A stretch of DNA of 40,582 bases, taken from positions 1 through 40,582 of the forward strand of contig JADZEM010000053.1 of NCBI GenBank assembly GCA_020850535.1, in the 5' to 3' direction. The first letter of the stretch is position 1. Each line of letters begins with the position of its first letter. This stretch comes from Chloroflexota bacterium. GTDB taxonomy: Bacteria > Chloroflexota > UBA6077 > JACCZL01. Shown here in pieces: positions 8,022 to 40,582 of the stretch. The position numbers and the translations under genes were made by a program. The notes beneath the pieces are model-generated. The model was not told where the DNA came from and did no database searches. It saw only the letters and a program-made list of their open reading frames with translations.

Positions 8022-8049
8022 CGGGTTCAGCGCACGACGCGCCCGACAT

Positions 8050-8134
8050 GCAATCACCCTGAGAAGACAGTAGCTGGAGTTTTGACAGAAGCCCGAGGTC
8101 TGTGTAGACTTGCGCGTTGTCGAAGGGTGATTGC
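8050..8134. repeat. 11-bp perfect inverted repeat around the propeller-gene promoter
   Basis: GCAATCACCCT (8050-8060) is repeated as its exact reverse complement AGGGTGATTGC (8124-8134). The pair brackets the TTGACA/TAGACT promoter at 8082-8110. The sequence differs by one base from the terminal inverted repeat of the MITE-like elements in this window (AGGGCGATTGC), but the arms face the opposite way from those of an intact element. It could be an operator, the junction left by two element ends, or chance. Confidence 0.55.
8082..8110 (+). promoter_or_regulatory. Strong sigma-70-like promoter for the secreted repeat protein
   Basis: TTGACA (8082-8087) is a perfect -35; TAGACT (8105-8110) matches 4 of 6 bases of the -10; the spacer is 17 bp. 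The start codon at 8140 is about 22 nt beyond the predicted transcription start. Confidence 0.6.
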
Positions 8135-8139
8135 GTTCC

Positions 8140-9657
8140 ATGCTCAACCGACTCACTGCCATGGCGCTGCTGGCGCTCCTGACTGGCGTGATGGTGCTCC
8201 AGCCTGCGACGTCCACGGTCCAGGCCAGCTTCACGCTGGTCGGGCTGGCGGACGGTGGCAAGCCGAGCGGCTCGTCGCTCTCGCCGGCCGGCAGCCTGAC
8301 CATCGTCTCGGATGACAGCGGCGCGCCCGTCCGCTACACGATCAGCCTGGCCTGGGTCCGCGGCCGGCTGCCGGAGATCGCCCAGGACGACCTGCTGAGC
8401 GTCGAGGTGGAGGTGCTGCCGGACGGGACGCTCGTCGCGAGCAGCGTGACCAACCAGACCGACCGCCAGGGCACGGCCAACCAGGGCCGCTCGACCGGCT
8501 CGGTCCAGATACGCGAGCAGCCCCGCCAGCCTTCCACCACGGACAAGTCCAACGAAGGTCCCCCGACCTCCACGGGTACACCAACGCCCGCATCGACAAA
8601 CGTTATCCGCATCCTCGATACAGCGGGCAACGTCGGCTGGTACACCTCGCTGCAGCTGAACGCCAGCGGCAAGCCGGTCGTGAGCTACTACGACGAGGGC
8701 AATGGCGACTTGAAGCTGCTCGTCTGCGGAGACGCCACCTGCTCGGCCGGCACGACGATCCGCACGCTTGACTCTGGCGGGGATGTCGGCCTGAACACCT
8801 CGCTGCAGTTGAACGCCAGCGGCCACCCGGTCGTGAGCTACGGGTCGGCCATCATCAACGACTTGAAGCTGATCGTCTGCGGAGACGCCACCTGCTCGGC
8901 CCCCACCATCCGTACCCTCGATACAGCGTTCGACGTCGGCCGGTACCCCTCGCTGCAGTTGAGCGCCAGTGGCCACCCGGTCGTGAGCTACTACGACGAG
9001 GGCAATGGCGACTTGAAGCTGCTCGTCTGCGGAGACGCCACCTGCTCGGCCTCCACCATCCGCACCCTTGATGTAGGGGGCATCGTCGGCCGGGACAACT
9101 CGCTGCAGCTGCACGCCAGCGGCAAGCTGGTCGTGAGCTACTACGACAGCACCAACGGCGACTTGAAGCTGATGGTCTGCGGAGACGCCACCTGCCTGGC
9201 CGGCACGACGATCCGCACCCTTGACACAGCGGGCAATGTCGGCCGGTACACCTCGCTGCAGCTGAACGCCAGCGGCTACCCGGTCGTGAGCTACTACGAC
9301 AGCACCAACGGCGACTTGAAGCTGCTCGTCTGCGATGACGACACCTGCTCGGCCCCCACCATCCGCATCCTCGATACAGCGGGCAACGTCGGCTGGTACA
9401 CTTCGCTGCAGCTGAACGTCAGCGGCAAGCCGGTCGTGAGCTACTACGACGAGGGCAATGGCGACTTGAAGCTGCTCGTCTGCGGAGACGCCACCTGCTC
9501 GGCCCCCACCATCCGCACGCTTGACTCTGGCGGGGATGTCGGCCAGTACACCTCGCTGCAGCTGAACGCCAGCGGCCACCCGGTCGTGAGCTACTACGAC
9601 GTCACCAACGGCAACTTGAAGCTGATCGTCTGTGGTGACGCCACCTGCAGACCCTGA
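8140..9657 (+). CDS. Secreted protein of seven 50-residue repeats, likely beta-propeller
   Basis: 505 residues from the ATG at 8140 (a TTG three codons earlier is the alternative, but it would sit only 3 nt from the AAGGG ribosome-binding sequence). A signal peptide covers about 1-28, with cleavage likely near TVQA-SF. Residues about 30-155 form a separate N-terminal domain ending in a Ser/Thr/Pro linker. Then come seven consecutive units of about 50 residues, each with the pattern IRTLDxxGxVGxxTSLQLNA, SGxPVVSYYD, NGDLKLxVCGDATC. The SYYDxxNGDLK motif occurs in many secreted bacterial proteins thought to form beta-propellers, and seven units would close a seven-bladed ring. Each unit has a close Cys pair (CGDATC), suggesting a disulfide in every blade. 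Likely exported to the cell surface or medium; ligand unknown. A terminator-like hairpin follows. Confidence 0.85.
   Translation: MLNRLTAMALLALLTGVMVLQPATSTVQASFTLVGLADGGKPSGSSLSPAGSLTIVSDDSGAPVRYTISLAWVRGRLPEIAQDDLLSVEVEVLPDGTLVASSVTNQTDRQGTANQGRSTGSVQIREQPRQPSTTDKSNEGPPTSTGTPTPASTNVIRILDTAGNVGWYTSLQLNASGKPVVSYYDEGNGDLKLLVCGDATCSAGTTIRTLDSGGDVGLNTSLQLNASGHPVVSYGSAIINDLKLIVCGDATCSAPTIRTLDTAFDVGRYPSLQLSASGHPVVSYYDEGNGDLKLLVCGDATCSASTIRTLDVGGIVGRDNSLQLHASGKLVVSYYDSTNGDLKLMVCGDATCLAGTTIRTLDTAGNVGRYTSLQLNASGYPVVSYYDSTNGDLKLLVCDDDTCSAPTIRILDTAGNVGWYTSLQLNVSGKPVVSYYDEGNGDLKLLVCGDATCSAPTIRTLDSGGDVGQYTSLQLNASGHPVVSYYDVTNGNLKLIVCGDATCRP
8602..9654 (+). repeat. Seven tandem 150-bp coding repeats
   Basis: The repeat-coding part of the preceding gene is seven units of about 150 bp that remain highly similar at the DNA level (shared blocks such as CGGTCGTGAGCTACTACGAC and GTCTGCGGAGACGCCACCTG). 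Units 1 and 6 are almost identical, and units 2 and 7 share the same distinctive opening (CGCACGCTTGACTCTGGCGG). This suggests a recent multi-unit duplication or gene conversion rather than seven old independent copies. Confidence 0.85.
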
Positions 9658-24168: not shown

Positions 24169-24383
24169 AGGGCGATTGCATGTTCATTGGTGTACCCGAA
24201 GCATCATGGAACGGTCGGTCGGGGACTGAAGTCCCCGCCTACCGTCATTCAGTCGCTGCGCGACGGCCGTCAGGAACGGCCGGCACTGGTGCGACTGGAG
24301 CGTCGCGCAGCGACTGAATGACGGTAGGCGGGGCTTTCAAGCTCCGACGAGGCGGCACGACGACATCAACATGCAATCGCCCT
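24169..24383. repeat. Palindromic MITE-like repeat, copy C (complete, perfect termini)
   Basis: 215 bp bounded by a perfect 16-bp terminal inverted repeat: AGGGCGATTGCATGTT (24169-24184) and AACATGCAATCGCCCT (24368-24383). The inner arms are also inverted: CCCCGCCTACCGTCATTCAG followed by TCGCTGCGCGACG on the left is the exact reverse complement of the right arm. The direct repeat GGGAGAGGAC flanks the element (24158-24167 and 24385-24394), one base outside each end, as a target-site duplication would. No ORF. The rest of the 24052-24424 gap holds nothing I recognise. Confidence 0.88.

Positions 24384-40404: not shown

Positions 40405-40582
<178 letters not shown>

Follow-up and report, generated by a model that had tools for sequence, protein, structure and literature searches.

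The window analysed here, a 40,582-nt stretch of DNA from a Chloroflexota bacterium, carries an open reading frame whose product is probably exported and built from three parts: an N-terminal module, a flexible linker rich in Thr and Pro, and a single seven-bladed β-propeller. The propeller was probably amplified recently from one blade and then reshuffled by recombination between its units. The fold and the evolutionary history in this explanation are much firmer than the function that we propose. The gene is laid out as follows, with the ATG at 8140 as the likelier start codon.

8131–9657, + strand: whole open reading frame, 508 residues from TTG 8131 or 505 residues from ATG 8140, with the stop codon at 9655–9657
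8140–8226, + strand: signal-peptide-like segment MLNRLTAMALLALLTGVMVLQPATSTVQA, of the Sec type by eye in the translation and without a lipobox cysteine
8227–8529, + strand: N-terminal module of about 100 residues
8530–8601, + strand: Thr/Pro/Ser-rich linker, with pLDDT mostly below 50 in the full-length model
8605–8619, + strand: first strand of the array, IRILD (DSSP strand 2–6), predicted to be strand 4 of the last blade

Judging by eye from its signal-peptide-like start, the protein is probably secreted or exported. The initial annotation, made from the sequence alone, had called it a surface protein, of which export appears likely; no anchor was seen in the protein.

Structure prediction, proposed in the initial annotation as a check on a closed seven-bladed propeller, returned a confident model with seven blades. 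The AlphaFold2 model of the array has a pLDDT of 96.3, a pTM of 0.93 and 28 strands arranged as seven times four, and was built from an alignment of 21 rows (the protein plus 20 rows from relatives) that were trimmed to seven units, which may bias the model toward seven blades. The blades are accordingly predicted to be four-stranded, with units of 48–51 residues, as in propellers with blades of about 40–50 residues. The array was again confident in the full-length AlphaFold model, in which the N-terminal module lies mostly below a pLDDT of 70. In the model, each 50-residue unit is predicted to supply strand 4 of one blade and strands 1–3 of the next. Since the array begins with strand 4 and stops at strand 3, the strand missing from the last blade would have to come from the start of the array, which would close the ring. 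The best PDB matches found by Foldseek are seven-bladed PLL lectins (8q7u, E 1.9e-15, TM 0.79). By VIA-align 2, the top match is CylK (Z 37.5, 2.3 Å over 334 residues), followed among the known propellers considered below by PLL4 (Z 33.2, 2.5 Å over 318 residues) and virginiamycin B lyase (Z 30.8). An open solenoid, also considered, is contradicted by the structure prediction and by the counts of seven in relatives. Strong support for a closed ring, as predicted, comes from the pTM and from alignment over the full length with seven-bladed rings of known structure. Prediction, fold matches and these counts together support the closed seven-bladed β-propeller that had been proposed.

A profile search of the PDB with E up to 1 yielded ten matches and no convincing sequence homologue of a solved structure; eight of the ten are designed (TIM) barrels, which we took as chance or repeat artefacts, and another match is to 4irt (E 0.009), a putative neuraminidase. 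For the whole protein, Pfam yielded nothing beyond scattered matches or ones below threshold. With the propeller alone, DUF7340 scored 28.2 against a cut-off of 27, over a best stretch of 28 residues and without any single stretch clearing the cut-off, and was judged a chance match. NCBIfam gave no matches. In the libraries searched, the repeat has no Pfam or NCBIfam model. Among the matches listed in open-licence papers, none concerned the repeat or its cysteine pairs.

The seven units of about 50 residues first placed at 8602–9654 were recovered at 8605–9654, each 48–51 residues long. Tandem Repeats Finder picked up the same array independently (scores 1289–1569), with a best-scoring period of 453 nt, i.e., three units. 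The units and the tracts that they share are listed below.

8605–8757, + strand: unit 1, 51 residues
8758–8907, + strand: unit 2, 50 residues, the most divergent unit, with SYGSAIIND replacing SYYDxxNGD
8908–9057, + strand: unit 3, 50 residues
9058–9210, + strand: unit 4, 51 residues
9211–9360, + strand: unit 5, 50 residues
9361–9510, + strand: unit 6, 50 residues, matching unit 1 at 145/150 nt (96.7%)
9511–9654, + strand: unit 7, 48 residues, terminating with strand 3 and its cysteine pair
8674–8748, + strand: 75-nt tract, unit 1 copy, identical in units 3 and 6
8977–9051, + strand: 75-nt tract, unit 3 copy
9430–9504, + strand: 75-nt tract, unit 6 copy
8758–8791, + strand: 34-nt opening, unit 2 copy, common to unit 7 only
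9511–9544, + strand: 34-nt opening, unit 7 copy

Pairwise DNA identities of the units, the other check that had been suggested, average 83.8% and range from 76.4% to 98.6% over the first 144 nt, and protein identities run from 67% to 98% with a median of 75.0% over 48 residues. The near-identity of units 1 and 6 and the peculiar opening of units 2 and 7, both noticed at the outset, are borne out. Exact tracts common to units 1 and 6 reach 85 nt, and the two units differ at their ends: unit 1 terminates in GGCACGACG, as does unit 4, and unit 6 in CCCACC. Units 2 and 7 are identical for the first 34 nt and diverge afterwards. Unit 7 is about as similar to the rest as other units are, unlike the last units of four other arrays (L071, L062, L061 and L008), each of which is clearly the most divergent of its array.

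Comparison with relatives points to a single blade as the source of the array. The mean identity between blades within the protein is 0.764, the highest among the 27 proteins compared, against a best value of 0.625 to any blade of 26 relatives, a maximum that excludes later matches at 57–60% identity. Blades closer within the protein than to other propellers, here the 26 relatives, and a median blade identity above 60% are the signs of recent amplification given by Pereira and Lupas (2022, PMC9218822). This pattern is the mark of a recent, independent amplification of one blade.

The units also appear to have recombined after they began to diverge. Their grouping varies along the unit: in columns 1–45, units 1 and 6 and units 2 and 7 form pairs, and in columns 85–135, units 1, 3 and 6 are identical and unit 4 is nearest to unit 5. 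In a site-shuffle mosaic test, 8 of the 21 unit pairs fell below p = 0.01 (null mean 0.13), two of which stayed below it when codon blocks were shuffled. Global p values by site were 0.0035 for units 3 and 6, 0.020 for units 2 and 6, 0.020 for units 2 and 7, and 0.022 for units 1 and 3; by codon block, only units 3 and 6 (0.009) and units 1 and 3 (0.036) remained below 0.05, and the 34-nt tract of units 2 and 7 went from 0.02 to 0.32. As identical runs may also stem from uneven rates along the unit, the mosaic is good rather than final evidence of recombination. It supports recombination between units inside the array, clearest for units 3 and 6 and for units 1 and 3, and backs the earlier view of a protein evolving by recombination. 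The reshuffling may have proceeded by either gene conversion or unequal crossing-over.

Other histories of the array were weighed against this one. That units 1–2 were copied as a block onto units 6–7, or underwent conversion with them across five units, the proposal of the initial annotation, would fit the colinear likenesses of units 1 and 6 and of units 2 and 7 and the mean identity at lag 5 (0.920), the top of six lags. When unit order was permuted, however, lag 5 reached p = 0.038 taken by itself and 0.19 once all six lags were counted, so that the five-unit block was dropped as a significant pattern. Moreover, the shared tract is interrupted at the ends of units 1 and 6, units 2 and 7 part after 34 nt, unit 3 carries the 75-nt tract as well, and the unit lengths (51-50-50-51-50-50-48) together with the 453-nt period indicate three-unit steps equally well; we find this block unlikely. 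Clearly unlikely is a single amplification of one blade followed by point mutation alone, without later recombination of units. The units of the array are indeed all alike, and 92% of repetitive propellers look globally amplified from one blade according to the excerpts of PMC9218822, but pairwise dS spans 0.03 to 0.55 inside the one array, the groupings of units differ by segment, and the long identical runs exceed those in site shuffles. Near-identical 150-nt units could also have been misjoined or collapsed in a draft assembly, here of 7.65 Mb in 227 contigs (96.3% complete, 4.6% contaminated), for which the exact tracts of units 1 and 6 would offer an opening. That the array is partly such an artefact is nevertheless highly improbable, given that seven units recur in most relatives from independent assemblies, that every unit, perhaps barring units 1 and 6, has clear private differences, and that the reading frame is open throughout. 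Amplification of one blade with later reshuffling between units remains our preferred reading.

A scan of a genome collection found the 26 relatives in both bacteria and archaea: Chloroflexi, Anaerolineales, SAR202, Doudnabacteria, Bacteroidetes, Brocadia, Loosdrechtia, Fermentibacteria, WOR-3, Armatimonadota, Nitrospiraceae, Verrucomicrobiaceae, Omnitrophota, Stahlbacteria, Thermoplasmata, Poseidoniales and unplaced bacteria. Their units were counted by profile, and five of the 26 arrays are cut by the end of the locus (L016, L017, L018, L026 and L027). Among the 21 uncut relatives, 17 have seven units or groups of seven: 13 with seven (including L013, whose eighth match, 285 residues away, was excluded), two with 14 (L006 and L008), one with 14+7 (L015) and one with 7+7 and an extra group of eight (L011). 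The other four depart from multiples of seven (L007 with 12, L022 with six, L023 with four and L024 with scattered units). By these counts, seven is a family trait, in line with the demands of a closed ring, and ring closure is the likely reason why the unit number is held at seven. A further relative, L061 (G328:C346), has an unrelated N-terminal part, then a T/P linker and only four units. Its frame is not cut and its contig measures 41.5 kb; the low count may reflect unit-number variation or assembly collapse. In the phylum of the window itself, 13 of 400 genomes match the repeat, so the distribution of the gene is patchy; neither of the two same-family genomes searched contains a match. 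Phage or plasmid origin of the gene was rejected, given zero phage matches and two weak plasmid matches.

A less usual trait of the array is a C-x4-C pair in every unit, at the following positions, converted from residue numbers.

8725–8742, + strand: C-x4-C pair of unit 1
8878–8895, + strand: C-x4-C pair of unit 2
9028–9045, + strand: C-x4-C pair of unit 3
9178–9195, + strand: C-x4-C pair of unit 4
9331–9348, + strand: C-x4-C pair of unit 5
9481–9498, + strand: C-x4-C pair of unit 6
9631–9648, + strand: C-x4-C pair of unit 7

All 14 cysteines of the protein belong to these seven pairs, which are predicted to sit in the strand 3–4 turn (between DSSP strands 36–41 and 52–57 for unit 1). The CGDATC pair formerly ascribed to each blade is thus present as a pair in all seven, but with that wording in six, unit 5 reading CDDDTC. 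To place it in the family, the loci of the analysis were combed for arrays of three or more units, which gave 48 (70 ORFs before duplicates were removed) with 359 units in total, in 352 of which the loop could be read by pattern. Of those, 69 have only the cysteine pair, 220 only a Trp, four both and 59 neither; cysteine pair and Trp are therefore nearly mutually exclusive. At column 46 of the unit profile, 68% of 263 units have W and 26% have C, and the second cysteine of the pair falls at the column where other members carry Trp. Thirteen of the 48 arrays belong to the Cys type, which makes the pair a subfamily trait rather than simply something unusual for propellers, as had been supposed. 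In a tree of the arrays, four Cys/Trp changes sufficed, compared with an average of 11.6 in 1000 shuffles (lowest value 8). The tree suggests few switches between the two turns, but it was built from 38 consensus columns, with the turn excluded, and is too short to trust. In the L028 array, some turns carry cysteine pairs and Trp together, possibly as an intermediate between the two types.

The seven pairs probably form disulfides, one per blade, that would pin each outer hairpin and replace an aromatic lock. The same genome encodes a VKOR homologue, which would fit disulfides being made outside the cytoplasm. We tentatively suggest a widespread bacterial and archaeal propeller family whose strand 3–4 turn is pinned, near-exclusively, either by an aromatic residue in an Asp-box-like manner or by a C-x4-C disulfide, the Cys form being an oxidised extracellular variant that might let near-identical blades amplify stably.

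The N-terminal module recurs in other settings. DUF5666 reached 15.4 bits with it, under the Pfam gathering cut-off of 27. A paralogue in the same genome (L060, G000:C166:46041-47447, − strand) has a module 66% identical over 150 residues, a start resembling the signal-peptide-like segment and a similar T/P linker, followed by two Ig/cadherin-like domains in the place of the propeller. In a same-family genome (G001, L032), a distant version of the module precedes a carboxypeptidase-regulatory-like domain. Because the partner domains differ in these two proteins, the module seems to be a fixed carrier whose C-terminal partners change. On yet another contig of the genome (C138:17738-17905, − strand; L002 and L059), a single blade is 83% identical to the array over 130 nt. 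Signal-peptide-like and linker-like stretches lie near it but in other frames, and it is apparently a decayed paralogue. Decay of blades is described for repetitive propellers in the excerpts of Pereira and Lupas (2022, PMC9218822).

As to function, our best guess, drawn from fold and domain context and put forward with some hesitation, is that the propeller acts outside the cell as a scaffold that binds a glycan or another polymer and is displayed by the N-terminal module. Partner parts in the relatives, which we take to be collagen-like repeats, a sortase-like domain, Bacteroidetes sorting tails and thrombospondin-like repeats, would suit exported or surface proteins. An enzyme working in the manner of CylK or virginiamycin B lyase was considered instead, in view of their VIA-align scores. 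However, the PDB searches gave no sequence match to CylK, near-identical blades give little asymmetry for a single active site, and, in the excerpts of PMC8916777, the essential Arg105 of CylK is supplied by its N-terminal domain, a domain not recognised here. We regard a catalytic propeller as quite improbable and keep to the binding scaffold.

Two further repeats were seen in the window. The dispersed sequence CGACATGCAATCNC occurs at 8044–8057 (+ strand), 24170–24184 (− strand) and 24368–24382 (+ strand), and 188 times in the genome with at most one mismatch, against one for a control. Many of the copies listed lie near contig ends. At 24170–24382, a long inverted repeat lies between two opposing copies, an arrangement resembling a MITE-like element. 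At 40406–40458, GTAGGCA forms a perfect 7-nt tandem repeat of 7.6 copies.

In summary, the protein is a clear added example of a propeller amplified recently from a single blade, and its mosaic tracts suggest that recombination went on after the units had started to diverge. Copying and reshuffling of blades is a well-described evolutionary route for propellers; less usual is that every blade has a cysteine pair where most relatives have tryptophan. The analysis draws notice to a repeat family without a Pfam model across many bacterial phyla and archaea, in which a Cys-for-Trp swap at a single turn makes an effect on stability directly testable.

Among known systems, the C-terminal propeller of CylK likewise has seven blades and gave the best VIA-align score, at an identity of 13%; by sequence, CylK was absent from PDB matches to E 10 with the protein and to E 1 with the profile. 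The excerpts of PMC8916777 describe for CylK a Ca-binding β-roll domain and blade-bridging Ca sites. The PLL-family lectins (Photorhabdus PLL and PHL) have the seven-bladed fold in common with our model, with identities of 10–17% in 22 Foldseek rows, and PDB searches with the protein and the profile found no match to PLL by sequence. Their inter-blade sugar sites depend on conserved Trp according to the excerpts of PMC12203525, whereas the whole propeller here has two Trp residues. With Asp-box (BNR) propellers, the protein shares a feature repeated at the strand 3–4 turn, where Asp-boxes lie according to the excerpts of Quistgaard and Thirup (2009, PMC2716378). The turn here is C-x4-C without an aromatic residue, and the Asp-box S-x-D-x-G-x-T-W was found in none of the seven units and, by a loose pattern, in 10 of the 352 family units; relatives have Gly/Trp turns, and the SAR202 relative L021 fits the Asp-box pattern in five of seven units. 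The closest likeness is to recently amplified propellers such as WRAP of Nostoc punctiforme. As described in the excerpts of PMC9218822, these share with our protein a median blade identity above 60%, blades closest within their own protein, a C-terminal location, relatives that differ in blade number and a decayed blade elsewhere in the genome. In contrast to WRAP, the repeat is dissimilar from WD40, the blades bear cysteine pairs, the decayed blade lies on another contig rather than adjacent, and the array is older, since dS between its blades reaches 0.55. With these differences, the protein is a further case of the recently amplified β-propellers known from Pereira and Lupas (2022).
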